Source of the DNA: Hoplostethus atlanticus
Lineage: Eukaryota > Chordata > Actinopteri > Trachichthyiformes > Trachichthyidae
NCBI GenBank assembly: GCA_034670405.1
Contig: JAXDDX010000159.1
Location: 682,001 to 746,000 of the forward strand
Direction of reading: 5' to 3'
Length of the DNA stretch: 64,000 nucleotides
A model generated the notes under the pieces. It was not told the DNA's origin and did not search any database. It was given only the letters and a program-made list of their open reading frames with translations. Every line of letters starts with the position of its first letter. Within the stretch, counting starts at the first letter, position 1. The position numbers and the translations under genes were made by a program. Shown here one piece after another: positions 9,376 through 37,992 of this stretch.

Positions 9376-9387
9376 GATGGCATCTGG

Positions 9388-9821: not shown

Positions 9822-10035
9822 AGATGCCATGTGTATCATTTCATCACCAATAAATCATTATCACATTGATTTTGAGACATTAATATAATTATTTTAAATA
9901 AACGAGACCATCCCTGAGAAAACTGGCAGCCTCTACTAGCCTCTTCACTGCATTTTACATTGTGTGCCACCGAGTCAGTTTTGGCAGGAAATCTGCTTGA
10001 TTGCTTTACGGAGTCAAAGGTCTTGGCCAACAGCT
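9822..10035 (+). repeat. Diverged partial copy of the TTA-flanked MITE
   Basis: Begins AAAGATGCCATGTGTATCATTT and continues with CAATAAATCATTAT, AACGAGACCATC and AGGAAATCTGCTT blocks, in the same order as the MITE at 33135-33499. No right terminal repeat is visible, so the copy is truncated or decayed. Confidence 0.5.

Positions 10036-12292: not shown

Positions 12293-12294
<2 letters not shown>

Positions 12295-12336
<42 letters not shown>
12295..12336. repeat. (CA)n microsatellite
   Basis: About 42 bp of pure CA, immediately upstream of the LINE fragment at 12389. Confidence 0.95.
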
Positions 12337-12337
<1 letters not shown>

Positions 12338-12388
12338 CTCTCTTTCTCGCAATAAAAGGCCAGCAGAGAAGCGTATATGTAATGTAGA

Positions 12389-13189: not shown

Positions 13190-14109
13190 ACACATCTCCA
13201 ACCCCCTCACCCTGAACACAGGATCCCCCCAGGGTTGCGTCCTCAGCCCCCTACTGTACTCCCTGTACACACATGACTGTGTGGCCAGGTTCAGCTCCAA
13301 CTCCATCATCAAGTTTGCGGATGACACAGTGGTGGTGGGCCTGATCTCCGACAACGACGAGAAGGCCTACCTGGAGGAAGTTGCTGATCTGTCACTCTGG
13401 TGCCAGGACAACAGCCTCCTCTTGAATGTCACCAAAACTAAGGAGCTGAGTGTGGACTTTAGGAGGACACAACAACAGAGGACGTACTCACCATTGGGGA
13501 TTAATGGGACTACTGTGGAGAGGGTGAGCAGGTATAAATACCTGGGAGTCCACATCACCGAAGATCTCACATGGTCCACACACACAGACACTCTGGTGAA
13601 GGCGGCGAGGCAGCGCCTTTACCACCTCAGGCAACTGAGGAAATTTAAAGTCTCCCGGAGGATCCTTCAGTCCTTCTATTACTGGCAACAGCTCCGCTCA
13701 GGACAGGAAGGCTCTGCAGAGAGTAGTGCGTTCGGCTGAACGTACTATTGGAACTACACTCCCCACCCTTCAGGACTTGTACACCAGGAAGTGCAGAACC
13801 AGAGCCTGCAGGATCATGAAGGATCCTCACCACCCCAACAACGGACTGTTTCAGCTGCTGCGGTCAGGCAAGCGCCTCCGTAGTCACGCTGCCAAAACAG
13901 AGAGACTGAGACGGAGTTTCTTTCCTCAGGCCATCAGGACTGTGAACTCTGACCTCACCAGGGCCCCCACCAAGACCCACACACTGCCTCTCTTATGCAC
14001 ACACACACTCACACACTTTGGTAACGACTACACAGAATTAATATTATATTACATACATACGATTTCCCTTTTTTACTATATTTTTATTTCCAAAGTGCTC
14101 TTACTGTAA
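13173..14109 (+). pseudogene. LINE reverse transcriptase, C-terminal half (two frames)
   Basis: Frame 13173-13739 holds the palm [13 protein letters not shown] motif, the FADD catalytic pair (about 13313-13339) and the thumb motif YKYLGVHI. After a deletion and shift near 13690-13725, frame 13726-14109 continues with [12 protein letters not shown] and the terminal LRRSFFPQAIR region. Confidence 0.8.
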
Positions 14110-14134
14110 ATATTGTGTTGTTTTTTATATAGAG

Positions 14135-14140
<6 letters not shown>

Positions 14141-14169
<29 letters not shown>
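14141..14169. repeat. (CA)n microsatellite at the LINE / duplication junction
   Basis: Short CA run separating the LINE 3' end from the 98-bp block copied from 17660-17757. Confidence 0.9.
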
Positions 14170-14170
<1 letters not shown>

Positions 14171-14268
14171 AGTGGTTGTAACACTAACAACAATGGTGTC
14201 TAATTTGGCATTCCCGGATACAAATGCATCCCAAAGTTTTCAGAGTATCAGCAGCTTTCAAAGGACTT
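14171..14268 (+). repeat. 98-bp exact direct duplicate of 17660-17757
   Basis: Both places read AGTGGTTGTAACACTAACAA ... TTTCAAAGGACTT with no mismatch seen, each preceded by a CA run. After GGACTT the two copies diverge. At 14269 the sequence passes straight into the left inverted arm. Confidence 0.9.
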
Positions 14269-16150
14269 GCATTGAAAATACTTGAATCCTGCAGGGATTG
14301 GTTGAATTTGCATTAATTATTGTGATTGCAAAATTGCAAATTCCTGGAGGCACTGATATATGCAACAATTTTACTTCCCAAGTAGTAAGTAGTAGTACTT
14401 CCAAATCATTTATGCTTATCTAAAACAACATTTTTTGCTCTTCCTACAGCTCATAGCAATTGTGATTCTGCCATCAGTCCATCAGTACCAGCATGGAAAT
14501 GATAAGCTGCCCAGCAACAAGGCTTGCAGCGTGCGTGCGTGTGTATGTGTGTGTGTGTCCCAGTAGACAGACACTTAAGTGAGAAGTAGCTCTGCCTGTT
14601 GATTGGTCGATTTGCCTTTTGCTTTACACGTTGCGGGGATGCTGCAGTCATTATCACTGAGTGTCACTGGGACCCTGCCAGTTTGTGTCATAGTGTGTCC
14701 CCCCTGTGAGAGGTTATTAGAGGTGATTGTTTTTCTAATCAAAAAATATCTGTTAAAAAAAATGTCATGAGCGAGTATACTAAAAAATTCCTACTAAATA
14801 TTAGGCAGTTTGAGTTCTGAGACACAAACCTATTGTTTCCTTTGTTTTTCAACTGGTTATTTTTTCAGGTCCTGGTGACAACTTTAATTTTACGCTATTG
14901 TGAATTAAGCTTGTGTTAAGTGCTTTCCATAGTGTCATCAGATGGCAAAAAAAATTTGTACCATGTACATTATGTTTGTATAGCTGTATACTTTGTTGAA
15001 TGTACTTTGTTGTTGTTATGTACACCAACTCACCAAGGGAAATTCGCATTAAAGGTGCTGTGTGTATCATTTTAACATCAATAAATCAACATTAGTATAA
15101 TCACTGTAAACAAACGAAACCATCACTGAGATGGGATTGAGAAGATCTCTACTGGCTATTTGGAGGGAAATCTGTGTTGATCCTCTTCAGTAAAGGCAAA
15201 GACACCAGGGAAGGGGCAGGGAGGGGGGCAGGAAGCAAAGGGGTTCATGTGAAATGTGTTCTTAATTTGGAGAAACACAAAATGCTACACACAGCACCTT
15301 TTACATGTAAATGCTCCTGGTGATTAAACTGATTCTGGTTGTGAAAAAGACCGCTAGCTAGATATGCTGTCCAATTGGTAGCATGGACTCTTCTTGACCT
15401 CCTGTCGCTGTTAGTTCTCTTCAACCCTCGCTGTTTTTGTACTGAACAAACTCAAGGGTGACCTGAGGCGGGAATCCACAAATAAAGCACAGCATTCGCT
15501 CATCTGCTTAGAGCAGACATTTGCCCCACAAAAAGCCAGATATCAAACAAAACGTTTAAGTGGTTGTGGTCAGCTTGGCAACAGTTCATCTGCCCTGGAG
15601 CTGGTAGTTCACAACAGGGGTGAATGGCCCTATGACTATTAAACTAACACACATTACTTAGTACCATAAAATGGTCTGATTCCTTTCTTCTATTTGCAAA
15701 AAATGAGTCATCATTGGGTTCTAATAAGTATTAGAACCATCTTCTGGCCCACTGATATATGGATTCTGACATCTGATGTACGTTAGCCAGGAAAAGGAAG
15801 CTAAATGAGACCATAAATGGGGGTAAATATTGGTAGGATGTTTACTGCAACTAGGCAGATTACATATAGACAATCTAAAATGAAAATGTCAAAACCGAGT
15901 CCAAACTAAGTGCTTTAAATAGTTTCTTGACTGTCTATACGCTAAGAGCATTCTATTTTTTCTATTTTTATTGTCTTCACTTTGTACGCCAGTGGTCCTC
16001 AAATCTGGACCTCTGGGACCAGAGTACTGCTGGTTTTCCATTCTGCCAGGTAGTTTCCATTCTATCTGTCTAATCAGGGACAGGTTTAGTCCAGGCGAAT
16101 GCAATTAACTACCTGGTAGGATAGAAAACCAGCAGTACTCCAGCCCCTGA
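14266..16150 (+). repeat. Left arm of a large inverted duplication
   Basis: Reads as the reverse complement of about 32290-34343. Anchors include TTGCATTGAAAATACTTGAATC (14268) against GATTCAAGTATTTTCAATGC (34321-34340), CTCATAGCAATTGTGATTCTGCC (14451), GACACAAACCTATTGTTTCC (14820) and AAGTGCTTTAAATAGTTTCTTG (15909). Compared with the right arm it lacks about 80 bp near 14562 and about 118 bp inside the MITE near 15179, and has about 17 bp extra near 14960. Confidence 0.9.
15052..15300. mobile_element. MITE with TTA target duplication, internally deleted copy
   Basis: Ends AAGGTGCTGTGTGTA / TACACACAGCACCTT are perfect inverted repeats, flanked on both sides by TTA (15049-15051 and 15301-15303). 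A 3-bp TWA duplication fits the PIF/Harbinger superfamily, but that assignment is inference. Its inverted counterpart at 33135-33499 is 116 bp longer. Confidence 0.75.
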
Positions 16151-16172
16151 GGGCCGGATTTGAGGACCACTG
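15990..16172. mobile_element. 183-bp hAT-type MITE
   Basis: Terminal inverted repeats CAGTGGTCCTCAAATCTGG and CCGGATTTGAGGACCACTG, with 8-bp flanks TTGTACGC (15982-15989) and TTGTATGC (16173-16180), one mismatch. Sub-terminal CCAGCAGTACT blocks extend the palindrome. The 8-bp duplication and CAG...CTG ends are the hAT signature. A corrupted copy is visible at about 32290-32445. Confidence 0.85.
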
Positions 16173-16299
16173 TTGTATGCAGTACCTTTCATTTCTTTAA
16201 AGATGCTAGATGTAGGATTTTCTTATTGGTGTTTTGCTGCAAAGGCAGTTGATTGCAGGGTTTCAGGTGGCGTAAGTCCACAGTGGACCTACATCAAGG

Positions 16300-16690
16300 G
16301 TACTCTTTCTCCCATGGCTTCATTCTTTCCATCCCTTTTCTACCCTCCCTCACATCCATCATCGTTTCTTGTTTCTGCTATCCCCTCCTCTTCCTCAGTG
16401 GTAGGATGGTTTCAATGTAGTGCCTTCCGCCCTTCTCCGTCCTCCATCTTTCATTCCCTCTGGGACACTGTCATCTACTTTCCCCTTGTATCCTCACCAT
16501 TAAGTGTCCTCCACGCTTACTTGTACCTCTTCACCCCATACCCAATCCTTTTCCTTCCCTTCTTCCTCAGCCCTTACCACCTGACACCAGATCAATCCTT
16601 CACCTCTTGTTTCTCCTCCTCCTCCTCTGTCTACTCCACTGCAACAGAAGCCCCTGGGCCATCTTGTATTCTGTTTCCTGTGTTTCATGT
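16300..16690. other. Pyrimidine-rich intronic tract
   Basis: Strongly C/T-biased plus strand (TTTCCATCCC, CTCCTCCTCCTC etc.). It keeps a 173-codon frame open by composition alone. The residues are Ser/Pro/Phe-rich with no domain, so no gene is called. Confidence 0.5.
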
Positions 16691-16819
16691 ATAATGCAGC
16701 GGGTCCCTTCCTCGCAGAGAAAGGGCCTGTCAGAGCATAGGGTAGGGCAGAGGGAGCAGAGTCCAGGGAGATCTGACAGTGTTGCTTGTTATGGTGCTTG
16801 TCAATATTGTTTTTTTTAA

Positions 16820-17470
16820 GGCCGATAGTTTTGGACTTAAGTTGCCGATAGCTGACATTTTGCACCGGCATTCAATATCTTTAAATATAACAATTCCTGA
16901 CAATTGTTCCAGACAACAAACCGCTGAGGATGTTGTTGCAGAATTTAAGGTGTTTAAGAGGTGGTGTTTGACTCGTGTAATGTCCCACCCTCTGTGTGGG
17001 AGAGTGCTCATATGGCAAACAGATATATCGGTCTAGCCCAGTTGAGTCTGATTAATATTGAAAGAGAGATAGATAAGGATGGAGGGTCTGTTGAATATGG
17101 ATTAGCTAAAAATGAAGACAGGCCAGCTAGGAGACGTTCAGCATACATTAAGAGCCATTATCATTAACCACCGCCATTTGCTAATTAGGACATAACTATT
17201 AAGCTACTGAAGTATTAAAACTGACGCTAAATCCAAGTAAAGACTAGTTACAAGCTTTTGGTGTTTCTTATTCGGAATTACCACTATGAGTTTGATGGGA
17301 GCGTTTTTTTCCCCAGTCGCATGGTTAGCATGGTTTTCAGTGGAGAGTTTTAGTGTCACGTGATGGGGCTTTCAGAGGCGTTTCAGAAGCTTTTCCCTCC
17401 TGACGAGGATCAAATTCAGCAGCTTTAATCCACATCGGCCTTCCAAAACCGGTATCGGTGGAAGCCTAGT
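16820..17470 (+). repeat. Dispersed repeat family A, copy 4
   Basis: Begins GGCCGATAGTTTTGGACTTA, contains GGCATTCAATATCTTTAAAT (as copy 3 has ATTCAATATCTTTAAATTTG) and ends ATCGGCCTTCCAAAACCGGTATCGG. Non-coding. Confidence 0.45.
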
Positions 17471-17612
17471 TGACAGACCTGGCCTGACCCAGGGGCCAAG
17501 AGATTCTCTCTCTCTCTCTAGCTTTTACATAAATGCCTGCCCCCAGCCATAATCATCAGCTGGCTCTGTTATGTCAGAATATAATCTCACCATACTGTTG
17601 GACCAGAGCCAA

Positions 17613-17617
<5 letters not shown>

Positions 17618-17658
<41 letters not shown>
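17618..17658. repeat. (CA)n microsatellite
   Basis: About 41 bp of pure CA upstream of the block duplicated at 14171-14268. Confidence 0.95.
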
Positions 17659-17659
<1 letters not shown>

Positions 17660-17757
17660 AGTGGTTGTAACACTAACAACAATGGTGTCTAATTTGGCAT
17701 TCCCGGATACAAATGCATCCCAAAGTTTTCAGAGTATCAGCAGCTTTCAAAGGACTT
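17660..17757 (+). repeat. Source-like copy of the 98-bp duplicated block
   Basis: Identical to 14171-14268. Here it continues into unrelated sequence (TTTATGCCGCC...). Confidence 0.9.
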
Positions 17758-19525
17758 TTTTTATGCCGCCTGGAATTGAATTTTGGATCAATTTAAACAA
17801 CAAAATAAAGAAACAAATCTCTCAAAACCAGCCTAGGCCCATTTCTAATGAAAGTTGTGAAACTATAAATGGGCAACATAAGATAAAGGACACCAGGAAA
17901 TTAATTGTTGAGGGACATGAAGTCCAACGGTGTTTAGTAAAGCAGATAGGATGCATAATGTACTACTAACCCCGTTCTGTATTAATCTAAGAAAGGAAAT
18001 GCAGCGCAAAGAAACCTGTCATTGCATGGTGAAAAGCATAAGACCTCTAGTAACTGGATTTATGATTTATATGGATTTATAATACTTTAAAGCCTATACA
18101 TTTAGATAATTTATTTTTCAACTTTTTCAGATTTTCTCAGATATATGTTCATTGTTTTCTGCTCCAAAATGGGCTTCTTCTCTAATAACCTATGCAATCA
18201 CAATTACTATTGCAGGAATGCTATTATTATTACTATTACTGTACATTGAATCTGATCACACACAGATACCAACTAGCGTGCACACATAATAAGGATGAGT
18301 CATATTTTTACACATTTGTGTTACTTTTAAACATATCAGAATCACAGTAGTCGTCATGTTGCACAGTGAAGGATCACAGCTTGGTTTAGAGCTGTGCACA
18401 ATCTGGTTTCTCTGTGCTGTGTGTTTAGTGCAGAGATGTGCGTACGTGCATGTTTGTGCATGATGCATTTTCTTATATAATCTGTGCATAAGATATATCA
18501 GATATAAGCCAATAAAAACAACTGCAAAAGAAGCATGGAACCTGGCCTCACATGTCCTGTGTAATGCTCGCTCACTATCACTTGCTTGCTTTTCTTCAAG
18601 CCAGTAGGTTGGTCTACTAGGTCTGTGAATGATTCTCAGCATGTTTCACCAATGGAAACGTTTTATTTTTAGTCCGTCCTACAGTGCCCCAGTCTCCCCT
18701 ACATAATGCAGTTCGAGTTTAATCGGCAGATGTCATTTTAATATGTAGGATTTTTTCATTCATTATTAAAATGTAATTGTTAAATGATTAAAAGCCTTAT
18801 CTTTTACTGTAGCGGAAGGAATGATCATACCAAAATAAAACCAAAGAGTGCAAATGAAAGTAGAAAAGGGAAATTGAAAATCAAAAGAGAAATGGAAAAG
18901 ACTAAATAGCGATTTGAAAATGCAAAGTGGGTTAAAAAATGTAAAATGGTGAAAATGTAAAATTGAAATAGAAAAGAATAAAAGATTTTTTTTTTAAATC
19001 AAAAGTGAAATCCAAAAATCCAAATGATGCCTCTCATTTGTCATTTGGCTTTTCCAATTGCCATTTTCACTTTCAATTTTCAAGCGGCATGTAAATGAGG
19101 AGGTGTGGCCCTTCCATCAATCAACGCCAGCAGGGTGGCTCTCAGATGGAGGAGAGGGTAGTGGCACCTCACAATAGGGAGATCAAACATGATCCTTCTT
19201 TTAACTGTAATGAACTTCATTCGTCACATACACATACATGCAATGCAATTCTGCCGCTCCAAATAATGAGTCAAATCATTTTCAGTATAATTTTCAGCTA
19301 TTTCTTTCAGCTATTTTCAACTATTTAAAGTTGTCTAGTTCCATAAGATTATATCAAGTTCCATAAAATGAGTGTGGTAGTGGCAGTAGCCAATAGGTTA
19401 GAGAGTATGTGTGGAACTGTATGAGGCAGGAAAAGAGCATCTATTAACATTCCCTATACGTTCCCTATGTGTGCTGTCCCAAACTAGACACATGGATGTG
19501 TTGACAATGACATGACAACACCCAC
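17758..19525. other. Clvs2 intron 4, no gene seen
   Basis: AT-rich. The part from about 18830 to 19090 is built from AAAATG/GAAAAT words on one side and CATTTTC/CTTTTC words on the other, giving a loose inverted repeat. No coding signal. Confidence 0.4.
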
Positions 19526-19758
19526 CTCTTCATGGTTTTCGGGGACAGGTCTTTCTCCAGGTCTCTCTCCAGATCTTGCACTGACAGAGTGTAGGACTCC
19601 GGACAGTAGTCGGTCTCCTCGTCGTAGGCGTGGTCCAGCAGCATTCGCGCCCACGTGCCCATATCATACGGTGGCATCATGCCACCGAGTTCCGACGGCA
19701 GGATCTCTGGGTGTATCAGCTGGTGGAGGCTGTTTAAGTTGTTACCATGCATGAAGAT
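19526..19758 (-). CDS. clvs2: clvs2 coding exon 4 (residues 226-303)
   Basis: 233 nt from [20 protein letters not shown] through PKTMK plus the first two bases of Arg303. It closes the CRAL-TRIO fold ([14 protein letters not shown], then [18 protein letters not shown]) and starts the acidic C-terminal tail ([10 protein letters not shown]...). The acceptor is CTTTGTAG. The donor is GTGGGT (19525-19520). The acidic tail is about four to six residues longer than in human CLVS2 (an extra [14 protein letters not shown] stretch), which accounts for the slightly greater total length. Frame and neighbours agree with the other exons. Confidence 0.95.
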
Positions 19759-20476
19759 CTACAAAGAGACCAGATTAGGGGAAATAAAGGTGGCAGGTTA
19801 GTTCCTGCAACCTCACAGCTCCTCCAAGGTCCATGAATCAAAATGAACCAAAAGACTGAAAAAGATTTAGGTACTCTTGGAGAATAATTGACAAAGCTTT
19901 TTTTCAGTCTTCTGATACTTCAAATTTGGCAATGGTTCTAAAGCATTTTTTTCCCAATGATATTTTAGTTTAATGTATTTTCTGCGTAATATTTCTATTC
20001 GATCGGTGCTTTACCATCAGGTTGGTAAAATTGTATCATTTTTTAAATCACTTCTTAAAACGCAATTATGAAATGGTAGAAAACGTTTTATGCCATGAAA
20101 ATTTAGCAGAGAACACTTTAGCATGCACTATGTTGAGTGACAGTAGACTCCATGCTAACATGCATAGAATACTGAATTAAACTTAGACTACATTAGGCTG
20201 ATGTTTAGATTCTAGCCATTGTTTGTTAAAATATTTCTTTCTATCTCGATTTTGTGCACTTGATGGGTTAGCACCAGCAGCAAACAGAAGGAAAGCACTC
20301 GCCCTCTTTGTCCTTCTCAGTCCTATCAGACCACAAAAAAAAAACGTTTTTGGGGATGACGGTTAATTATTTATTTCTGATAAAAATTCAGCTGTTACAT
20401 TGGTTAAAAAGCCTCATCTGTGGGGTTTAAATAGCGCGTTTACGGGCGTAGTTGGAAAAAAAAAGAGACTTGAAGC

Positions 20477-21615
20477 CAGTGGCGGCTGGCCAATAGAGGG
20501 TGCTAGGGCGCCGCCCCACCACTCCCCACATCCTAGACTTCATTGAATAAGACTTTAAAAATTACTTTTAATTTTTTTTTTAAATGAGCGAGGTAAATAT
20601 TATCTAGTTAGTGAGTAAAATGTATAATCCGCAATAAAATGTAGATTAAAATTGTTCTACGTTGTCTAAAGTTACTGCTAGGTCACGTATTTCCAGCTTG
20701 GGGCGCAACAATCTTTGCCCATTGACTCTCGTTATAAGTTGTACATGCGCAGTTCGCTCCTCTTCAATACAAGAGATAGGAGCTTGGTGGGGCGCAGGAA
20801 AGCTGCGACCCAACAGCATTTATCTGAATGCTGAAAGCTGATTTACACACCACCAACCACTGGTTGGCATCAGAGAGCGAGTGGCTTGTGGTACATCTGA
20901 CATAAAATGCACCAGAATGAGACAATATACTCGGTCGTTTTCAAGGAGCTGGTTTAGTAGGAAGGCTTGGCTAACTGCATGTAGTGACACCAATGCTTTA
21001 TTTTGCTTTCGTGCACCCTTTTTCAAACGACAGGTCTCAGACCCAGCATGGATTCAGACAGGTTTGAATGATTTAAACCACATATCAGAAAAAACAAAAG
21101 CAAATGTTTGGGAAAGTAAACATAGTTGCTCAGCTTGATGAAGGCTACAGAAAGTACAAAAGGTTTAAGCCACAAGGTGGCAAAGTCATATGGCTTTGAG
21201 CCAGTTCACTCAGCTTTTTGATGGCACTGGGTATTTCAAATGTAATACCATATTCATTTATTTTTTTCTTAAATGTTATTTTCTATTAGGTCTTACTGTG
21301 TTCATAATTTTCTACCATTGTCTCAGGGTTTTGTGTTGTCAGATTTCTTTTGCACTTACCGAGGCACTTTTCGCTTACTTTAGTCTTTCACCATTACATA
21401 TTGTAGTATAAAAGGTAATTATTATAAAGAATTTGCACTAATTGAAATACCTTAACTTACCTTAAGCACGTTTCATTACAACAAATGTTCATTCAGCTCA
21501 GAAAATACAAATAAAGGCTTTTTCATTTATTTAAATACACTGATGATACCTTAGTACATGTTTGCTTGATTTTTGGTATAGCCCCCCCTGGAGAAAAAAG
21601 CACCAGCCGCCACAG
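20477..21615 (+). mobile_element. hAT-type transposon remnant with TTF zinc-finger fragment
   Basis: The ends CAGTGGCGGCTGG and CCAGCCGCCACAG are inverted repeats with one mismatch. The 8-bp flanks are CTTGAAGC (20469-20476) and ATCGAAGC (21616-21623), with 6 of 8 matching. Inside on the plus strand, 20881-21138 encodes a TTF-type zinc-finger N-terminus (KAWLTACSDTNALFCF..., then AWIQTGLNDLNHISEKTK). The catalytic transposase domain is missing, so the copy cannot move by itself. It fills more than half of the 2052-bp clvs2 intron 3. Confidence 0.8.
20881..21138 (+). pseudogene. hAT transposase TTF zinc-finger fragment
   Basis: 85 codons. The pattern W/F...WL....TNALFCF followed by W...GLNDLNHISEKTK is that of the TTF-type finger found in ZMYM1-like hAT proteins. 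The second Cys of the usual CF.C pair reads Arg (CFRAP), so the finger is probably not functional. Confidence 0.7.
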
Positions 21616-21810
21616 ATCGAAGCCTAAAAAGACGCTTCAGGTCGCAATGACGCGCGTGAGACGCAGCTGGAGTGCGAGCCAGGACGGAGATGGTGTGGAC
21701 AGCAGTGTTGGTTAAAATGAAAGTGTTTCTGCTGCGAGAGACGCACGACTGAAAAACGCGACTGAGTCGCGTCCTGTGTAGACCAGGCTTTAAACTTGCT
21801 TTGGCCTCAC

Positions 21811-21921
21811 CCTCTTCCTGGTCTTGTCTTTGAGGAACGGCCGTATGACGGTGTAGAGGGCGTGGATGTACCAGGGCTGGTTCACAAAGTGGATCCCTCC
21901 AAATCTGGCGGGGAAACTGTC
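21811..21921 (-). CDS. clvs2: clvs2 coding exon 3 (residues 189-225)
   Basis: 111 nt, 37 whole codons, from [20 protein letters not shown] to FLKDKTRKR. This is the CRAL-TRIO segment in which sec14-family proteins carry the FPARF...HFVN motif next to the ligand pocket. The acceptor is TTCCAACAG. The donor is GTGAGG (21810-21805), phase 0 on both sides. A hAT element ends only about 195 bp away in the following intron. Sequence and phase fit clavesin-2 exactly. Confidence 0.95.
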
Positions 21922-22220
21922 CTGTTGGAAACAGAAGGCAGAAGATAGCGTTAACCTCTGTAAAGGCACAGCATAATAGATATAACCAGGGATGCGGTGG
22001 AGGGTAAATCCACACACGTTTTTCGCGTTTTTATTTGCTGCATACAGTGTGATGAACCAATCACTGCACGCAGTCAGGTTGATTGTGCGCACCTGTGGGT
22101 GCTCATTAACTCTGTCAGGGACTCTGAACAGATAAAAGACAGAGCCGGGAGATGAGCAAGAGAGCTGGGGGAGCAGGTAACTGTGGGTTGCTGGGGCTTG
22201 GTAGCCCACGCCAAGACCAA

Positions 22221-22286
22221 ACTTTCTGCTAAGAACTGACCATACTTTCTGCTAAGAACTGACCATACTTTCTGCTAAGAACTGAA
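22221..22286 (+). repeat. Triple 23-bp tandem repeat
   Basis: Three copies of ACTTTCTGCTAAGAACTGA(CCAT), the last one incomplete. Confidence 0.9.
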
Positions 22287-22649
22287 GCTGTTGGCTGCTT
22301 GCACTCAAGGGGGGGGGACCGTTCGCGGATGGTTAGGGGGGACCGTTCGCGGATGGTTAGGTCCGCCGGCGGAGAAGATAGTTAGAGAGGGGGAGGCTGT
22401 GCGGGGGTTTAGAAGGAGGTAGAGAATTGGGGTATTAGGAGTGCGATTGTACTGTTCCCCCACAGCACTGGAGCACTCGGTATGCTGCCAGGGTCTCCCT
22501 TGATTCCACTGTCTCGACAGATCCCCCCAGTGGGCTAATACGTCAAAAGAGCCTGGTCGGGACCGTGGTACCTGCTCAGGCCCCGGGGGAGGGCCGCACC
22601 ACATGGGCCAGTTAAGTGATGGTTTTTAACCCAAGATAGTTTATGTTGA

Positions 22650-22710
22650 TTTGTGTGTGTGTGAGTGTGTGTGTGTGTGTGTGTGTGAGTGAGTGAGTGA
22701 GTGAGTGAGT
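22650..22710. repeat. (GT)n/(GAGT)n microsatellite
   Basis: GTGTGTGAGTGTGTG run passing into pure GAGT repeats. Confidence 0.9.
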
Positions 22711-23339
22711 GTTCTTTTAAAATACCGCTGGGTCCGGGAGGGGATAGACGGCAGTTGTCTGATTAACTTATGGGGAGGGGGTTGCGGCAATTAATACTGA
22801 AGTGTGTGTCATCACCTGGGCTGAGCCCCTTTTGTCGGTTGTTGTGTCAAGAGTTTGTAGTGGCTTTAAATCTTTTCTCACGTGTGCGTGTCTATTTTCA
22901 CCTAGTGTGACTTAAATCAGAATAGCGCATATTGCATGTCAGCTCCTGTCCCAGGGCGGAAGGGATAACTGTGTGTATGAAAGATCATCTTTGTTCTGAT
23001 GCCCCGGCGGTCTTATGAATTATTGTCCAGATAAATAAAGACGTTAATTTTCCATCTCTGTGGTGCGTGTGTGGTGTGTACGACCTCTGTTGCCGGGCCT
23101 GCCAGCTGATCAAGGGTGGTGGCAGCAAAACAAACCCGGTCCACCAAATTTCGCTACACAGTTTACTCACTTCTTTAGGTTAAATCTTTGTAGCATAAAT
23201 CATAGTAAGTTGTATCAAACTGATGTAAGTCTTTTAAGGGGGGAGATATAAATTAATGCATTTCTAAAAATGTAATAGATTTTGGTTTTATTGGTAGTTG
23301 TTTGCCCTATGCAATTCCTTTATTAAATACCCAAAAATA

Positions 23340-23490
23340 AATACGACATATTCTACATTGCATTAAATAGCATATATTCTACTATTCTACATTATATATT
23401 CTACATTAAATAGCATATATTCTACATTACATGCTATTCTACATTATATATTCTACATCTAATATATTTTCTACATTATGTCTGTCTGTG
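23340..23490. repeat. Irregular TATTCTACAT tandem repeat
   Basis: About ten imperfect units of ATATTCTACATTA, very AT-rich. Confidence 0.8.
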
Positions 23491-23659
23491 ACCCTGTGTG
23501 TTCATCAGTGGTGGCTGGTGACTCAAAACATTGGGGAGGACAGGGGGAAAACTAACCCACGGCGTCATGTTATTTTACACTAGTTGGCTACTTATCTCTA
23601 CTTTCTTATGTTCAAATGTAGAAATAATCCAACTAGCAACCTAATAATAACCTAATAAT

Positions 23660-24733
23660 CAGGGGTTAAAGTGAGATTTGGCAGGTGGGGGAACCCTAAG
23701 ATCCAGTGTAGCGGTGCAGTGGGGAAAAATGACTCACCTCATAATAATTGTTTATTTATTATTTATTTAAGACATTTCACAATAAACCAGATAACTTCAA
23801 CAATACATAGTGTACACAGTGTTTCCCACAGAATTAGATTCTATTTGTGGTGGTAGCTGACCGGTTGGGGAGGCACCCACACACTTTCTTAAATTAATTA
23901 TTAAATAATACTATAGCCTATATAAGGTGCTCCACTGTAAATATTTAATTGCCAAGTACTTTGTGACAAATAACAATATATACAGCTCAATTGCTTCACG
24001 TTGTGTCAAACACATAACAAAATATATACAGGCACAGAAGAATAGAAATGAGTCTTTTCTGCCCTGCTTCTACATCTCTCTGTTTGCTGTCTATCTCACC
24101 TGTTGCTTCTGCCCTAGCTGGCTGCTGTGGGAGAGCCACGTCCGCTTCCTGATTGGGTCTTATCAGTCAGACGTATCCTTCCCTGGCGATGGATAGTGCT
24201 CCTGGTACCGCGGTAATATGTCGCTGTATTTGCTTTGCGACAACTCCCAATCTATACTCTCCGCCGTGTTTACCGCCTTATACTTGTTTGTTACTTTCAG
24301 TAACAGTTCCACCTCATCGTCCAAACAAAGACATCTCTGCTCTTTTCTCCATAATCTGCTTCCTGTTTACACCGGCACGCGCATGCCCAGTGTAGGTGAA
24401 TGGTAACGTGATATGCGTTTTTTGGACGGAGATAATTTCTGAAACGGTGCTATAACGCTTGTGTGGACCGAGATCGTTTTAGTTTCAAAACTCTGTTTTA
24501 AAACGAAAACGTATTAGTGTGGAATCGGATGTAGCCTCAGAGAGGAGGCTACACGGAGGCTACACTTTCTGATTTGTTGAGTGAGTATCTCGATTGCATC
24601 AGCTGGAAGGAACGCCAGGCTGCAGCACACGAAAATGAACTCTCTTGACATTATTATGTATGAAACTGCCAGATCAGATTTATTTACTTATTAATCGAAG
24701 GTGCCGGATCGTTCTGGCCCACTTTAACCCCTG
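23660..24733. mobile_element. Nested hAT element with perfect 8-bp target duplication
   Basis: Terminal inverted repeats CAGGGGTTAAAGTG / CACTTTAACCCCTG (14 of 14). Flanks CTAATAAT at 23652-23659 and 24734-24741 are identical. 1074 bp, non-autonomous. It contains CAGTGTTTCCCACAGAATTAG near 23818, which is itself like a hAT end and like part of repeat family A. Confidence 0.88.
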
Positions 24734-24762
24734 CTAATAATAATAACCTAACAAATATCATA

Positions 24763-25014
24763 TTATCTTATTACCTTATTCAGGTTTGAATCTTTCTGGT
24801 GATTTTTGATCATGGTTATCTGTGGAGTTGGTCGTCCGGCAGTCTTGATCCTCACCTTTGCTGCGTAATCGAAACTGTGGAATGGCTGTGACAACAAATA
24901 ATCCACAAGATGTTCTTCCCCATCCCACTCTCCGCATCTGCGTCCATGCCTCTCTGTCACCCCCTCACTTACGCTGCAGTTAATTGCCGCAGCACCACTG
25001 TCCTCCAAATCCAT
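24763..25014 (-). pseudogene. Possible N-terminal exon of a hAT protein
   Basis: 83 codons on the minus strand inside the outer element, in the part after the nested insertion. The stretch LVDYLLSQPFHSFDYAAKVRIKTAGRPTPQ resembles the N-terminus of TTF/ZMYM-type hAT proteins. It stands alone with no catalytic region. Weak recognition. Confidence 0.35.
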
Positions 25015-26280
25015 TCTCGCCGTTAGTTTAACAGTCCTTCAGGGATGCTGCAACAAGCTAACTGTTGCGTTGGCTAACCCAAGTAGCTAGCTACTGCGTG
25101 ATAAAAAAATTTTTTTAAAAAGGGAAACGTAAATCTGAAAAAAGGAAATTTGGACCAGCCTCCTCTGGTTGAAAAGGCCTAAATGAAATGTAATTTTTTT
25201 TGTTTTGTGTTTAAAAGTAGATCTATCTATCGCTTTACCGCCAGTTCATCACACTCACGTACACTACAGTGGTAGAGAATTGAAGATGAAATTTGGAAAT
25301 TATCATTGGACCAACGCGATGTCAATATTGTATTCTGGTTGTTGATTGGTTAGGGAGGACTTCCTCCCTTGGAGCATCATTTTATGTGTTTTGGCCAATA
25401 ACAGATTAGCATGAAAAAAAAATGAAATATATTAAATTGATGTAAGAGATCCCGCCCTAAGAAGGACAACATGAGCCCGTCCTCCTCTGCCCCCCCACAC
25501 CCACCACCACTTCACAGACTGCCCTTTCCCCTCTTGCCTGCCCTGCAGGTGTCGCTGTTGAAGCATTTTAATCAGAATTTCAATAATGGATTTTTTCCAA
25601 AGAAGAGATAAGAAATATTTTATAAATGATACTGAAATTTGGTAATGGTTTATTTCAACCAATTACTCTTTTTTATATTTTGATCTCCCTCTTGTCTCTC
25701 AAAAATAGAGGAGGAGCAACCTCCTCTGCCTCTATGGACCAGCCTCCTCTGGTGTTCATGCCTAAATCCCCCTGTTTGCCTGAAATTGTCTTTTCAATGA
25801 TGTTGGGGATATTTTGGGGTGTAAACCATTTGCTGTGGGCGTGTCATATGGGTGTGGCTAGTGGTGAGCTTTCAAATCAAATCAAATCAAATCAAATCAA
25901 ATCACATTTATTTGTATAGCCCTTAATCACCGTTACAGTCTCTAAGGGCTTCACAGTGCCCAACATGTGAAAATAATAAATGGTTAGTACACGACATCCC
26001 CCAGCCTTAGACCCTCAGAGAGGACAAGGAAAAACTCCCACAAACCCTCACTGGGAAAATTGGGAGAAACCTTGGGAGGGGCTACTCAGAGAGGGATCCC
26101 CCTACCAGGACGGTTGGGCGTGCAATAGATGCCGAGTTTGGGCAAGCAGCGTATACACAATATATGAAAGTTTATTTTGGTGGGACATCCAGATCTGATG
26201 GGGCGGCATCACAGCAACGGCAACTCAGTCAGCGTCATCATAGGACTAGGGGACCATGCAGGCGCCAACACTGCCCACAT

Positions 26281-26428
26281 AGGAGAACGCAACGTCCGCT
26301 CAGTCAGCATCGTGCTAGGAGGCGGGACCAACCAGACGCCAACTCTGCCCAGATAGGAGAACGCAACGTCCGCTCAGTCAGCATCGTCCTAGGAGGCGGG
26401 ACCAACCAGACGCCAACTCTGCCGGGCT
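26281..26428 (-). repeat. 74-bp tandem duplication in the L2 3' UTR
   Basis: AGGAGAACGCAACGTCCGCT begins at 26281 and again at 26355. The units share GGCGGGACCAACCAGACGCC and differ at single bases. Confidence 0.85.
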
Positions 26429-26638
26429 GCGGCCTGGAACAGATAGGAGACTCACCCACACACACCCATACACACACTCTCACTCACACAGACAAACATG
26501 ACCAGCGTCAGTGGACAGGAGCAGGTAGACCAGGAGAATAGGACATGTAGGCAGGATGCTAGTATCCATCGGCAGGACCCTGATCTAGGATGAGCTAACT
26601 GGTCTAGCCTTACTCTGAGAAGAGACTGAGCCACTCCC

Positions 26639-29260
26639 TCAAGGCTGGTCAAATGACAGAGAGAATAAATGAGTTTTTAGCCTTGACTTAAAGACTTCGA
26701 TAGAGCCTGCCTCTCTGATTGAGGCAGGCAGACTGTTCCATAGATAGGGAGCCCGGTAAGAGAAGGCTCTGTTACCTGCAGTTTTCTTTTTGACTGCTGG
26801 GATAGACAGGTAGCCAGCGTCCTGAGATCTGAGGGCGCGTGGCGGTTTATAAGGTTTAATCAAATCGGATAAATAGGACGGTGCCATCCCATGTAATGAT
26901 TTATATGTAAGTAAAAGCACCTTAAAGTCACACCTGGCCTGAATTGGTAGCCAGTGTAATGAGGACAGGATGGGAGTTATATGGTCGAATTTCCTAGTTT
27001 TGGTCAGGATTCTGGCAGCAGCATTCTGGACCAGTTGTAGTTTTTTAGTGCGCCCAGTAGGTAAGCCCGAGAAAAGGACATTGCAATAATCGATTCTGGA
27101 TGATACAAAGGCATGTACTAAAATTTCTGCGTCTGCCTCTGTTAGCATAGGTCGAATTTTAGCAATATTGCGAAGATGATAAAACGCTGATTTAGTGATC
27201 TCCTTAATTTGCAACTCGAATGAGAGGGTAGGGTCGAATTTTACCCCAAGGTTTTTAACGTATGGGCTCTGGGAGATTACACAACTATCAAAGTTAAGAG
27301 TACTATTCTCAAATAAGTGTCTATGTCTAGCCGGTCCCACAATCAGCATCTCAGTTTTGCTGCCATTAAGGAGTAGGAAGTTTAGGGACATCCAATATTT
27401 GACCTCTGATAGGCAGGCCTCTAGTTTTTGGAATTGGGTGTCATCGGTTGGTTTGACTGGTATGTAAATTTGGGTGTCATCGGCGTAGCAATGGAAGTTA
27501 ATGCCAAATTTGCGAATGATGCCACCAAGTGGTAGCATATAGATAGAGAATAGCAGTGGTCCTAGGACAGAGCCTTGTGGGACACCAAAGTCCATATTGC
27601 AACACTCTGAGGTCATGTTGTTGTAAAAGACGTGGTGTGATCTATCAAGTAGGTAAGACCTAAACCAAGAAAGGGCTGATCCCCGGATACCAATATAATG
27701 TTCAAGACGGTTCAAGAGTATCGCATGATCAATTGTGTCGAAGGCTGCACTCAGGTCAAGTAGCAATAGTGCTGAGGTTGAATTGGAGTCAATAGCTAAC
27801 AAAAGATCATTTACCACTCTCGTAAGTGCAGTTTCGGTCGAGTGAAGGGATCTAAAGCCAGATTGAAAGGGATCAAGCAGGTTATTTTTTGTCAAAAAAT
27901 CTGTAAGTTGACTGGCTACTGTTCGTTCAAGTAATTTGGAGAGGAACGGCAGATTTGAGATTGGTCTATAGTTCTGAAGTACCTCGGGGTCAAGGTTCGT
28001 TTTTTTCAGTAGTGGCTTGATCACGGCCGTTTTAAAGGCGGAGGGCACCGTGCCAGTGGAGAGCGACTGATTGATCATATAGAGAATGGAGGGTCCTAGG
28101 ATAGGGAATACTTCTTTAAGCAGTTTAGCAGGTAGAGGGTCAAGCATGCAGGTCGTGGGTTTTGAAGACAGAGTTAGCTTGGTGAGAGAGTCTAAGGAAA
28201 CTAAATCAAACTGTGAGAAAAGACATTCAGCCCGGGGAACACCAAGTGGACTTTTCAGGGGTGAGACGGCACCGCCAGTAGAGAGTGTACTGGTGATCTC
28301 ATCTCTAATCAGCGTGATTTTCTGACTAAAAAAGGACATGAAATCATTCGGAGAAAACAGAAAGCTATCAGAGGGGGAGGGATTCCGTGTTAGCTTAGCA
28401 ACAGTGTCGAATAGAAACTTTGGGTTGTTTTTATTTGCACTGATTAACCTAGAGAAGTGTGCAGTTTTGGCTGACGAGAGTGCACATTTATAATTTAGCA
28501 AGCTATCATTCCAGGCAAGCCGGAAGACTTCGAGTTTGGTCAATCGCCATTTACGTTCTAGTTTTCTACAGGCTTGTTTAAGTGCACGAGTGTCGTGGGT
28601 AAACCACGGTGCAAACTTCCTAGCGTGGTGTTTTCTAGTGACTAACGGGGCGATTGAGTCAAGCGCGTTGGTAAGGCTAGCGTTTAGTTCGTTGGCAAAA
28701 TTGTCGAGTGAGCCAACATGACCAGAGAGTGATGCGAGAAAGCTGGGCAGTTTTTCAGATAGTAACGAGGCCATAGTGGCATTAATACGACGACTAATAT
28801 AAGTATCTTCACATTTTTGGCGTGGGAAGATCAATTTGATTTCAAATTTAATGAGATAGTGATCAGATAAGGCGGGCACATAAGAGGAGACCACTAAAGC
28901 AGAAACAGGAATGCCACGGGTCAGAACCAGGTCAAGGGTGTTGCCGCCATGGTGGGTTGGTTCATTAACAAATTGAGTGAGGCCGCAAGTATCAATAAGA
29001 TCTAGGAAGGCCTTACTGAGAGGATCGGTGGAATTATTCAGGTGAATGTTAAAATCACCGATAATGAGAATATTATCAGCTCGGGTCACTAAGTCCGAAA
29101 TGAAATTGGAGAACTCTTCTAAGAAGAGCGAATAGGGCCCAGGTGGGCGGTAAAGTACTGCTAAGTAGAATGATGGAGATTCGTAGCTGTAGGGCGCAGA
29201 ATCAGGACTTCGAAGGATGTAAAAATTTTTTGTTAGGTTTTTGGGGGTAAGACTAAGGAT
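26639..29260 (-). CDS. L2 ORF2: endonuclease C-terminus plus reverse transcriptase
   Basis: An 816-codon frame from the Met at 29089, and in frame upstream to about 29260 (SPDSAPYSYES..., YRPPGPYS). The order is: AP-endonuclease C-terminal motifs IIGDFNIHLN and SDHYLI; a linker; reverse transcriptase with NYRPISNLPFLSKLLE, LLDLSAAFDTIDH (about residue 441), GVPQGSVLGPLLFSIYML and catalytic YADDTQIY (about residue 531); thumb NLGVKFD; and the C-terminal LHWLPIQARCDFK...RLKTHLF. It nicks genomic DNA and copies its own RNA by target-primed reverse transcription. No stop or frameshift occurs in 816 codons, so the insertion is young or recently active. The missing N-terminus is due to the sequence patch beyond 29260, not a visible mutation. 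Confidence 0.9.
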   Translation of the reverse strand: MLSLTPKNLTKNFYILRSPDSAPYSYESPSFYLAVLYRPPGPYSLFLEEFSNFISDLVTRADNILIIGDFNIHLNNSTDPLSKAFLDLIDTCGLTQFVNEPTHHGGNTLDLVLTRGIPVSALVVSSYVPALSDHYLIKFEIKLIFPRQKCEDTYISRRINATMASLLSEKLPSFLASLSGHVGSLDNFANELNASLTNALDSIAPLVTRKHHARKFAPWFTHDTRALKQACRKLERKWRLTKLEVFRLAWNDSLLNYKCALSSAKTAHFSRLISANKNNPKFLFDTVAKLTRNPSPSDSFLFSPNDFMSFFSQKITLIRDEITSTLSTGGAVSPLKSPLGVPRAECLFSQFDLVSLDSLTKLTLSSKPTTCMLDPLPAKLLKEVFPILGPSILYMINQSLSTGTVPSAFKTAVIKPLLKKTNLDPEVLQNYRPISNLPFLSKLLERTVASQLTDFLTKNNLLDPFQSGFRSLHSTETALTRVVNDLLLAIDSNSTSALLLLDLSAAFDTIDHAILLNRLEHYIGIRGSALSWFRSYLLDRSHHVFYNNMTSECCNMDFGVPQGSVLGPLLFSIYMLPLGGIIRKFGINFHCYADDTQIYIPVKPTDDTQFQKLEACLSEVKYWMSLNFLLLNGSKTEMLIVGPARHRHLFENSTLNFDSCVISQSPYVKNLGVKFDPTLSFELQIKEITKSAFYHLRNIAKIRPMLTEADAEILVHAFVSSRIDYCNVLFSGLPTGRTKKLQLVQNAAARILTKTRKFDHITPILSSLHWLPIQARCDFKVLLLTYKSLHGMAPSYLSDLIKPYKPPRALRSQDAGYLSIPAVKKKTAGNRAFSYRAPYLWNSLPASIREAGSIEVFKSRLKTHLFSLSFDQP

Positions 29261-32200
29261 AGGGTTTAAAAATCAGGGCAACACCCCCCCTTTTTTTGTC
29301 TTCCCCCCGGGAACCTGAGAACTAAGAAAATTTGGGGGGGAAGCTTTTAATTAAGGCAAAAACTCATTTGGCTTAGCCAGGTTTCACAGAGACCCCCTCA
29401 TGTCTAATTATTTCAGTAATCAAATCATTTATCATTTAAACCCTTTTTTGACAATATCTTATATTTAGTACCCCCGTGAGGCGTTTTACACTGCTAGGTT
29501 TTTATCAAATTTTTTAAAGGCAGTATGCGTGGGGCGAAATTTTAATTAAAGTTGCTGTAAAATTTCTGTGGGTCGGTAGGAAATTTGACGGGGGCCGGGG
29601 GGAAAAGATACAGCTTAATTGGAAGGACTGTACGTAATTTTCAAATCGAGAGGGGGCCCCCGCCAAGGAAAAAGTAGAACAGACTGGTAAAACCGGTAGA
29701 ATATGGGGGGAAAAAGGGAGCGGGGGCACAGCTCAGTCGTTCTGCTGTAAGCTCAACCTGGCAGACTCCACAACCCTTTCTAGGGGCCCAGCAGGTTCTC
29801 TAAATCACCTGCATCCCGGGGAGCTCTACACGAAGGTCAGCTTTTCCCTTAAACTCTACTATGTTTCTAGATAATAAAGCAGCGCCTACCCCCTTAGGGT
29901 GGAGGCCGCAGCTTTCAGCAACCCGGGGTTTTCCCCCGAAGGAGGGGCCCTTTCTAAGAAGACTAACCCTTTTCTTCACATGCTTCGCCCCCAGAGGTTG
30001 AGGGGGATAATCTGCTATAACCTCATCATTGCCCCCGCGAAAGGTAAGGGGGGCCCGAGACAATTAATCGATGCCGACAAATCTTCCAGCGGGCAATGTC
30101 CCCTGGCTATGTTTACTTGTGACCTCCAATTGCCTCATCCAAAAAGTCATTGCGCCGCTGAAGAGGCAAAAAATCATGGGGGGAAAATTTGCCCTTCTTC
30201 CTTGGTTGAAAATTTGTGCCCCCCAATTCCTCATTTTAGCATGGCCCCAGGTAAAAAGAAACCCCCCCGGCGAACTTTCCCTCTTCTGTTGGGAAACGCC
30301 GAAACTTTGGGGGGAGCCCGGGGCCGGGAGCCAAGGGCCCCAGGGGTAAAAAACAGAAAAAACCTCGGGGGCCCGGGGCGAATCGGGGCCCACAAGGGGG
30401 GTGGAACCGGGGGTCTGGTCCCCAGACGGGAAAAATTCCCCCTAGCCGGGGAACAGCGGGCCGGGGACGACCTCAGACAAAGGGGACGATTAGGGGCCGG
30501 GGGGCCCCCGTTGGAATCGGCCCCGTTCCGAACGGCCCTCTCCGAAAACCCCAAAACGGACAAAAAAAGGGGCCCCCGGGGGAACCTACCCTTGTTATGT
30601 TGGAGCTAGGTCGGGGGAGGGGGCCCCAGTGAGATCTACGCGGGGTGCCGTCCGCCAAAAAAAAACGCCCTAAAAAAAACCGCTTTTTCTGGGGGCGGGA
30701 CAAAATTTTAAAAGGACAAAACCTTTTCAAAAACCCCCGGGGGCAAAAAGGAAAAAAACAGGGCCTGCCCCTTTAAAAAACCCTTGGGAAAAAAAATGGA
30801 AACTAAACCGTTAAGGTTAAATCCAAATGAGGAAAAATCGGGGGGAAAAAATACACTCGCCCAAGGGAAAAAAACAACAGACAAACAAGACAGAAAAAAA
30901 TAAAATTTTAAACCATTGGAGTTGGTCGGGGGATTTCGTAATCCCAAATTTTTATGTTTAATGCTTTCAAAAAAACGGGCACCCAGAAAAGTGAAAATTC
31001 CAACAACAACAATGGAGGAAAAAGGTAGAAAAGGGAAATTTTTTAAAAAACAAAACAAAATTCCCAAAAGGGGATAACAAGGGTCTAAAATGAAAAAAAT
31101 TCCACTAAGAATTCCTTCCTTTCCCAAAAGTTTTTTTAAATGGGTTAACCAACTAAAGAATTTTCCCGCATTAGGGGGTTTTTAAAACATAAAACCCCCG
31201 GGAAAAATTCCTTTAACAGGAAGCTAGATCTCCCGCCCGGTTTCCAAATCAATTTTTGATAAACCCCTGTTTGGGTTTTGGTGTTGTTGGTGTGAAAATT
31301 GGGTCTAAAGTTGGTAATTTAAATTTTGAATAACAAAGGGGAATTTTGGCGGGGGCACAATTTGTTACGTGGGTTTAAAAAAGAAAAAGAAAAAGAATTT
31401 CCTTGCCCCCTTGGGGCCCTTTAATAGGTTTTAATGGGGTTTAACCCTTGGTAAAGGAAATTTTCTCCATTTGGGGGGAAAAAAAGCCCCCCAAAATGTT
31501 ATTCCGTAAGCCCAAAAAGGGAATAGTCCTGATTTTGCGCATTTTTCTTAGAAGCTTAAATTATGTTAATTCTGGGTGGTTTGTAATGGTTTGTTGTGAA
31601 GTTTTTGGCCTTTTTCAACTAATAATTAAAACCCCCATTTTTCAACCCTTTAATATTAAAAGCTTGGGGGGAGCCAATAACTGTTTGCCCTTGAGAAAAA
31701 GGGGGGGAAAAAAAACCCCCCTTCACCAATTTTGCAAACTCCACCCTTTGTTTTTGGAACCAATTTTGGAATTTTTTAAAAAATTTTAAAACCCCGGAAA
31801 AAAACGGGCCCCATCCAAAACTATGGTTAAAAAAAACAATATTTAAACACCAAAAAGCCCCGCAGTTCCCCCTTTTCCCCCTTTTAGTCGCGGTTTTTGG
31901 AAACCCCTGCTTTTTAAAAAAAAGGCAAAACAAATGGCCCGGTTTTTGGTTAAGAAAAAAGGGGAAAAAAAAGTGAAGGTTTACTGGTGCATTAAGGGGT
32001 AAAAAGGGAAAAAAAAATTTTTTAAAGGGACAGACTGGGAGGACCTTAATTGAAATCAAAGAAGCATTCCCAGAGGGGGTAACGGGGGGCAACAACTCTT
32101 AAACCATTACCCTGGGGGGGGAAAAATCAAAAAAAAAAAACGTTTGGTTTTGAAGTAAAAAGGGATAAAAATGAAAGGGAAAAAGTATTATTATCCCGGG

Positions 32201-32650
32201 GGACTTAGCCCAAACCCCCAAAAACCCGCCTTAAAAAAAAAAAAAATTACAAGCAAAAAAATAAAGGAAAATGCTACCTGGCCTCTCCGCCCTACTAGTC
32301 TGCGGTTTCTTCCTAAGGGAGTTTAAAATTTTTTGCCCGGACAAACTGCCCGGGTTTCGTTAAATGGAAACCCGGGAGAATGGAAAACCAGATACTACCC
32401 TGGCCCAAGGTCCAAGATTGAGGGGCCACTGCTACAAAGTGAAGACAATAAAAAAAGAAAAAATAGAATTTGCCTTAGCGTATAGACAGCAAGAAACTAT
32501 TTAAAGCACTTAGTTTGGACTCCCCTTTTTTTGGGGCAAAATTTTATTTTAGATTGTCTATATGTAATTTTTTGCCTAGTTTTTCAGTAAACCTTCCCAC
32601 CAATATTTACCCCCATTTATGGTCTCATTTAGCTTTCCCTTTTCCGGCTA
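29220..32650. other. Corrupted, raw-read-like sequence patch
   Basis: Clusters of inflated homopolymers (GGGGGG, CCCCCC, AAAAAAAA, TTTTTT) replace normal sequence. Where a clean counterpart exists (15780-15930 versus 32485-32650) the same locus reads with random substitutions and stretched runs: GACTCGGTTTTGACATTTTC in the clean arm appears as GACTCCCCTTTTTTTGGGGC here. The start overlaps the L2 endonuclease and the end overlaps the right inverted arm. Frames of up to 236 codons in it are artefacts of composition. No gene should be called here. Confidence 0.85.
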
Positions 32651-33134
32651 ACCCTACATCAGATGTCAGAATCCATATATCAGTGGGCCAGAAGATGGTT
32701 CTAATACTTATTAGAACCCAATGATGACTCATTTTTTGCAAATAGAAGAAAGGAATCAGACCATTTTATGGTACTAAGTAATGTGTGTTAGTTTAATAGT
32801 CATAGGGCCATTCACCCCTGTTGTGAACTACCAGCTCCAGGGCAGATGAACTGTTGCCAAGCTGACCACAACCACTTAAACGTTTTGTTTGATATCTGGC
32901 TTTTTGTGGGGCAAATGTCTGCTCTAAGCAGATGAGCGAATGCTGTGCTTTATTTGTGGATTCCCGCCTCAGGTCACCCTTGAGTTTGTTCAGTACAAAA
33001 ACAGCGAGGGTTGAAGAGAACTAACAGCGACAGGAGGTCAAGAAGAGTCCATGCCACCAATTGGACAGCATATCTAGCTAGCGGTCCTTTTCACAACCAG
33101 AATCAGTTTAATCACCAGGAGCATTTACATGTAA

Positions 33135-33499
33135 AAGGTGCTGTGTGTAGCATTTTGTGTTTCTCCAAATTAAGAACACATTTCCCATGAACCCCTTTGC
33201 TTCCTGCCCCCCTCCCTGCCCCTTCCCTGGTGTCTTTGCCTTTACTGAAGAGGATCAACACGTTGGCCTTTCACTCCTTCCACCATCTGCCATCGAGAAA
33301 AACTCTCAAAGCTTTAGTTCTGTTAGGGCTGGAAGAATGACGCACTCTTCCTGTTTTGTGCCGTAAAGCAATAAAGCAGATTTCCCTCCAAATAGCCAGT
33401 AGAGATCTTCTCAATCCCATCTCAGTGATGGTTTCGTTTGTTTACAGTGATTATACTAATGTTGATTTATTGATGTTAAAATGATACACACAGCACCTT
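33135..33499. mobile_element. MITE with TAA/TTA target duplication, full-length copy
   Basis: 365 bp with ends AAGGTGCTGTGTGTA / TACACACAGCACCTT type, flanked by TAA at 33132-33134 and 33500-33502. The 15052-15300 copy is the same insertion seen on the other arm, with an internal deletion. Confidence 0.75.
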
Positions 33500-34040
33500 T
33501 AATGCGAATTTCCCTTGGTGAGTTGGTGTACATAACAACAAAGTACATTCAACAAAGTATACAGCTATACAAACATTTTTTGCCATCTGATGACACTATG
33601 TAAAGCACTTAACACAAGCTTAATTCACAATAGCGTAAAATTAAAGTTGTCACCAGGACCTGAAAAAATAACCAGTTGAAAAACAAAGGAAACAATAGGT
33701 TTGTGTCTCAGAACTCAAACTGCCTAATATTTAGTAGGAATTTTTTAGTATACTCGCTCATGACATTTTTTTTAACATATTTTTTGATTAGAAAAACAAT
33801 CACCTCTAATAACCTCTCACAGGGGGGACACACTATGACACAAACTGGCAGGGTCCCAGTGACACTCAGTGATAATGACTGCAGCATCCCCGCAACGTGT
33901 AAAGCAAAAGGCAAATCGACCAATCAACAGGCAGAGCTACTTCTCACTTAAGTGTCTGTCTACTGGGATTATAAAGCTACGCTGTGACTACTTCAGCAGT
34001 GCTACCCCTTAAGGATACTGTATGCCTTGGTGTGCTTCTA

Positions 34041-34072
<32 letters not shown>

Positions 34073-34076
34073 ACGC
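34041..34076. repeat. (CA)n microsatellite
   Basis: CA run in the right arm. The left-arm equivalent (about 14531-14562) is a shorter GT run. Confidence 0.9.
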
Positions 34077-34533
34077 ACGCTGCAAGCCTTGTTGCTGGGC
34101 AGCTTATCATTTCCATGCTGGTACTGATGGACTGATGGCAGAATCACAATTGCTATGAGCTGTAGGAAGAGCAAAAAATGTTGTTTTAGATAAGCATAAA
34201 TGATTTGGAAGTACTACTACTTACTACTTGGGAAGTAAAATTGTTGCATATATCAGTGCCTCCAGGAATTTGCAATTTTGCAATCACAATAATTAATGCA
34301 AATTCAACCAATCCCTGCAGGATTCAAGTATTTTCAATGCAAGTTTTATTAACCCCTACAGGGGGAAGAAGTTTAGACACTTTTAACCTGTATTATTATA
34401 GTTTCCATTTATCCTGAGCCTTTGCTTTGCATAGTTAGTCAGATGGAACTATGCAGTTTAATAATCATGAAACACACCAATTGACTGATTTTATTTGGTT
34501 CTTATTTATTAAGACCAGAATCCAAACACAGTG

Positions 34534-36702: not shown

Positions 36703-37992
<1,290 letters not shown>

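Follow-up and report, generated by a model that had tools for sequence, protein, structure and literature searches.

Parts of PMC9516828 and PMC2864568 document false duplications of divergent alleles in assemblies. The "heterotype" kind arises from divergent alleles, the second allele being assembled as a paralog, and the "homotype" kind from read errors; unplaced scaffolds are in some cases the other haplotype and in others error-bearing redundant copies of raw-read length (sections of PMC9516828). Here we examine an inverted repeat in introns of a clvs2-like gene of the fish Hoplostethus atlanticus, in a stretch of 64,000 nucleotides (assembly GCA_034670405.1, contig JAXDDX010000159.1, positions 682,001 to 746,000, forward strand; the whole stretch is called the window). 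The feature is probably an assembly artefact, a heterotype false duplication placed in inverted orientation. It is like a heterotype false duplication in the allele-like divergence of two copies on the same scaffold, the bad sequence beside one copy, the overlapping flank ends, and the redundant low-quality contig elsewhere, and it is unlike one in that the extra allele is inverted and sits 16 kb from its source, joined cleanly and without an N gap. The parts of the locus are as follows.

14265 to 16061, forward strand: left arm, inverted copy of 34344 to 32363 (self-comparison of the window)
32363 to 34344, reverse strand: right arm, clean over 32656 to 34344 and fading below (self-comparison)
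16062 to 17653, forward strand: Z, the continuation of the left block past the readable arm match (matches to a second contig, C756)
14140 to 14268, forward strand: first copy of the direct repeat, (AC)15 plus 99 bp
17629 to 17757, forward strand: second copy of the direct repeat, 129 bp, 100% identical to the first
14265 to 14268, forward strand: junction J1, a 4-bp overlap (ACTT) of direct repeat and inverted block (base-level comparison)
17616 to 17658, forward strand: junction J2, (CA)21, where Z meets the second direct-repeat copy (comparison with C756)
29230 to 32655, no strand: unreadable, homopolymer-smeared block in the place of Z and of the 5' part of a long interspersed nuclear element (LINE), limits approximate (bin statistics and C756)
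15988 to 16176, no strand: palindromic repeat resembling a miniature inverted-repeat transposable element (MITE), at the inner limit of the readable match between the arms (hairpin folding and genome search)

The match between the arms exceeds chance by far. It falls into three blocks: 14265-14558 against 34344-34051 (294 bp, 99.0% identity), 14558-15174 against 33968-33377 (95.8% with gaps counted), and 15174-16061 against 33261-32363 (94.3%). At its inner end the right arm fades, with a first difference at 32655 and the match gone by ~32300; in 100-base bins read leftward from 32700, substitutions and indel events numbered 0/0, 1/3, 7/6, 2/10, 11/15, and 3/13. Outside this zone the arms differ by four substitutions, plus two in a TG run, and by six indels (116, 73, 20, 10, 3, and 2 bp), an allele-like difference. 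The first-pass annotation had placed the duplication at 14266-16150 and ~32290-34343; the repeat is there, with the limits listed above, and the right arm, rather than ending sharply at 32290, decays into unreadable sequence. The palindromic repeat at 15988-16176, for which "MITE-like" is our own label, is predicted to fold as DNA into a hairpin of -62 kcal/mol (z, -12.3; 0 of 200 shuffles were equally stable) and was found at 36 other genomic places among the best 40 of 2358 candidates.

What follows the left arm shows how far the copied DNA extends. The 1.5 kb from the left arm up to the CA repeat, which we call Z, has a sole other long genomic match (among the best 40 of 155 candidates), and that match is C756, a 24.5-kb contig of the same assembly which is reverse-colinear with the window from 45788 to 23707, with interruptions. 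C756 holds arm and Z together, in the position of the right locus: its bases 14555-16230 match window 15622-17319, and its bases 16252-16514 match 17419-17653. Since C756 has Z after the arm, as the window has after the left arm, the whole left block from 14265 to ~17653 is a second, inverted copy of right-locus DNA. The copied piece, previously taken to be two kilobases long, thus comes to ~3.4 kb, because C756 places 16062-17653 beside the right arm.

Both joins of this block are clean at the base level. It is bracketed by a direct repeat, a 30-bp AC run followed by 99 bp, of which the two copies show no difference over 129 bp; the earlier figure for this duplicate was 98 bp. At J1 the direct repeat runs to 14268 and the inverted identity has already begun at 14265; ACTT is therefore common to both, one base more than the CTT overlap previously described. 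At least 4 shared bases were found in 1.8% of 200,000 draws of random inverted junctions in this window. At the CA repeat of J2, C756 instead runs on into other DNA. An ordinary transposon insertion was considered and rejected: the donor continues past both ends of the block, and the flanking repeat is 129 bp long rather than a short target duplication. Adjoining J1 is a LINE fragment, the second in the window (12294-14169, plus strand; reverse transcriptase at 12383-13739), which is flanked by AC repeats at 12294-12336 and 14140-14169, as though it had landed in a CA microsatellite.

The right locus has an unreadable stretch where Z would be expected, and the right arm runs into it at its inner end. 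We measured the smear, ~3.4 kb long, as the fraction of length kept after homopolymer compression in 250-base bins, counting a bin as low if it kept <0.62. Twelve of the 13 bins in 29251-32500 kept 0.40 to 0.61, and the rest of the window averaged 0.72. The window as a whole had 13 low bins among 256, with a longest run of 10 and one (18751) isolated, whereas control stretches from the same 1.0-Mb contig (200 kb, 20 of its ~100 ten-kb stretches) had 8 low bins among 800 and never two in succession. C756 is itself smeared in places (22 of 98 bins low; longest run, 8). Four 4-kb pieces of other small contigs comprised three readable ones, with 1 low bin in 48, and a fourth without readable bases.

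Compared with C756 in 350-base steps, smear 29200-30249 matched strongly, with scores of 127, 176, and 130.5, where the best of 8 controls reached 60, 61.5, and 56.5, respectively. Smear 30250-31649 matched weakly but in order (controls as good, 1, 0, 6, and 26 of 300), in bands picked after the strong-match scores had been seen. Smear 31650-32300, the expected place of Z, gave no match to C756 (105 of 300 controls were as good), and direct comparison of Z with the smear gave none either. The smear follows the order of C756 from the LINE side and follows the arm from the other, with the signal lost over Z. These graded matches, in order, and the negative test with Z itself indicate that the right locus of the window's contig has a hole at Z, with decaying sequence on either side, and a bad stretch of this kind beside one copy is what a heterotype false duplication shows. 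One could instead suppose that the inverted repeat is real and that its pairing interferes with nanopore base calling, which would explain the smear, and a loss of base-calling accuracy beside inverted duplicates has been described by Spealman and colleagues (in part of PMC7229812). We regard this as very improbable because smear and repeat differ in extent: ~1.7 kb of the duplicated arm (32656-34344) is clean and, judged by the weak colinear mapping to C756, ~2.3 kb of the smear lies in unduplicated DNA. Moreover, the results in that part of PMC7229812 concern repeats meeting at a junction, not repeats ~13 to 16 kb apart.

The non-long-terminal-repeat (non-LTR) retrotransposon at 26639-29272 (minus strand) is present also in L010, a piece of C756, at 7270-9999. 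Its open reading frame 2 (ORF2), with RVT_1 and endonuclease, is open for 877 aa up to the smear, and in C756 a 366-aa frame lies open ahead of ORF2; the element may be young, given the long, open ORF2 and the open 366-aa frame.

Three versions of the arm were then available for comparison. C756 equals the right arm over 1,318 bases, from 34344 down to 33027, with no difference; the four substitutions, the two in the TG run, and the six indels of the left block lie within that stretch, and at each differing site, therefore, C756 agrees with the right arm. Beyond the arm, 1 substitution and 17 small indels separate C756 9000-12500, taken as a whole, from the right locus; past Z, in the ~5.4 kb of C756 19000-24428, the count is 3 substitutions and a single indel. 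Within Z, the alignment of the left block with C756 covers 1479 bases and shows 9 substitutions and seven indels (1 to 68 bp); we kept 4 of the 9, since the other 5 fall at the CA repeat or in C756 16230-16252, a patch of poor sequence. Three tracts of C756 were left out as error-laden: 2571-6615, where ~4 kb holds 46 substitutions and many indels; 7615-9000; and the final 70 bases. With the two clean C756 tracts, the contrast in substitutions was 8 in 3.04 kb versus 4 in 8.9 kb (Fisher p = 0.003; p = 1.5e-5 with all 9 substitutions in Z). This contrast is not robust, because p depends on which tracts of C756 are counted; the exact 1,318-base identity is firmer. From these comparisons, C756 and the right locus look like one haplotype and the left block like the other, assuming that the genome is diploid and C756 redundant.

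A haplotype difference of this kind would also be explained by a heterozygous inversion spanning ~20 kb, one of whose breakpoints would be 14268/34344. Starting in the left flank, the contig would track the inverted haplotype across arm and Z and then slip at the CA repeat to the standard haplotype, for which reason the direct repeat would appear twice, and J1, with its 4-bp microhomology, looks as the left breakpoint would. This account requires the assembler to have slipped at a 43-bp CA repeat, the reciprocal breakpoint was not seen in the loci read, where J1 is the sole candidate, and at 34344 the arrangement in C756 is the standard one; we consider this account improbable.

C756 carries its own sign of misassembly. 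Window 15622-16373 occurs twice in C756 12279-15300 (L010 2279-5300), around that contig's own smear, one copy smeared and one mostly clean. The same locus thus bears a false direct duplication in C756, showing that this assembly makes false duplications here. C756 is like a homotype false duplication, an error-rich redundant contig of read length, in being 24.5 kb long, near-identical to the primary contig where clean, and smeared in several places; it is unlike one in carrying a clean Z, which the primary contig lacks at the right locus.

We therefore favor a false duplication, which explains why the left block differs as an allele would, why the donor has a hole, why there is a redundant error-rich contig, and why a perfect 129-bp repeat flanks the block. 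The 3.4-kb left block would be the right locus's other allele, running from 34344 through arm and Z to the CA repeat and built, inverted, into clvs2 intron 4. Its insertion point would be where two contig ends truly overlap by the 129-bp direct repeat; a perfect repeat of this kind is the expected trace of an unrecognised contig overlap. The right locus would have been left with a hole at Z, filled by unreadable consensus, and presumably no DNA molecule carries the two joins. The first-pass annotation had left a choice between a real inverted duplication and a join of two haplotypes. The join is better supported, because the left block differs in an allele-like way from two agreeing versions of the right locus and carries DNA unreadable there; the real duplication is kept as a rival, because both joins are clean and show homology. 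The earlier suggestion that it could drive exon inversion or foldback finds no support in these data.

Several points weigh against a false duplication. The joins are clean, whereas the two bad stretches, in the right locus and in C756, are smeared. Homology is present at J1, at a length uncommon by chance, and the CA repeat in which J2 lies is shared; a real template switch would leave such joins. For so low a substitution rate, indels of at least 20 bp are numerous. The substitution contrast falls to p = 0.13 if C756 4000-6250 is added and to p = 0.40 with all of 2571-6615, tracts that we took as error-laden by a choice that we cannot prove. Were C756 itself the second allele, that would make the left block a third copy, and therefore a real one. 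A search with 17659-20658 for an empty-site allele of the left locus found, repeats aside, no second copy. Neither PMC9516828 nor PMC2864568 uses the word "inverted" in its main text.

The real event that would best fit these points is a template-switch insertion of the type known as fork stalling and template switching or microhomology-mediated break-induced replication (FoSTeS/MMBIR), which we judge unlikely, if less so than an inversion. The left locus would have been copied to 14268, with a switch at ACTT to the opposite strand at 34344; arm and Z would then have been copied to the CA repeat, with a switch back at the left CA repeat, giving an inverted 3.4-kb insert, from 16 kb away, flanked by a 129-bp duplication. 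Such an event could still be polymorphic, with the donor allele preserved. A single event of this kind would yield the two joins, the inverted orientation, and the 129-bp duplication together, and microhomology is present at both switch points (ACTT at J1, the CA repeat at J2), where the joins are clean. The locus is like a FoSTeS/MMBIR inverted templated insertion in the nearby origin of its insert, the homology at both joins, and the short flanking duplication; it is unlike one in that the donor is unreadable in the same contig.

The coding exons of the surrounding gene keep their order. Coding frames like those of clvs2 lie on the minus strand at ~59.4 to 58.9, 58.0 to 57.7, 22.2 to 21.8, 19.8 to 19.5, and 8.8 kb; the frame near 8.8 kb, located by its motifs, we take to be the last exon. 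CRAL_TRIO_N and CRAL_TRIO (Pfam) were found on the open frames at 59.4 to 58.9, 58.0 to 57.7, and 22.2 to 21.8 kb, and the open frame at 19465-19758 had no Pfam match. For the first exon, the best matches among solved structures were retinaldehyde-binding protein 1 chains. The exon order is normal and neither arm overlaps these frames, whose positions agree with the earlier placement of the left arm in intron 4 and the right arm in intron 2, with two exons between:

19465 to 22251, reverse strand: two clvs2 coding exons between the arms (frames 21790 to 22251 and 19465 to 19758), order undisturbed, CRAL_TRIO on the first

Other repeats in the window are a third LINE at 52798-55037 (minus strand; reverse transcriptase at 52798-54333 and a weak endonuclease match at 54693-55037), a perfect (GA)106 run at 36707-36919, and a 74-bp tandem unit in 2.7 copies at 26224-26423.

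Were the block a real insertion by template switching, it would be a germline template switch in a good state of preservation, each of its joins resolved to the base. If it is the false duplication that we favor, the locus is a caution that a clean, microhomology-flanked inverted repeat in a gapless contig can be a misplaced allele, the tell-tale of which would be unreadable sequence at the donor.
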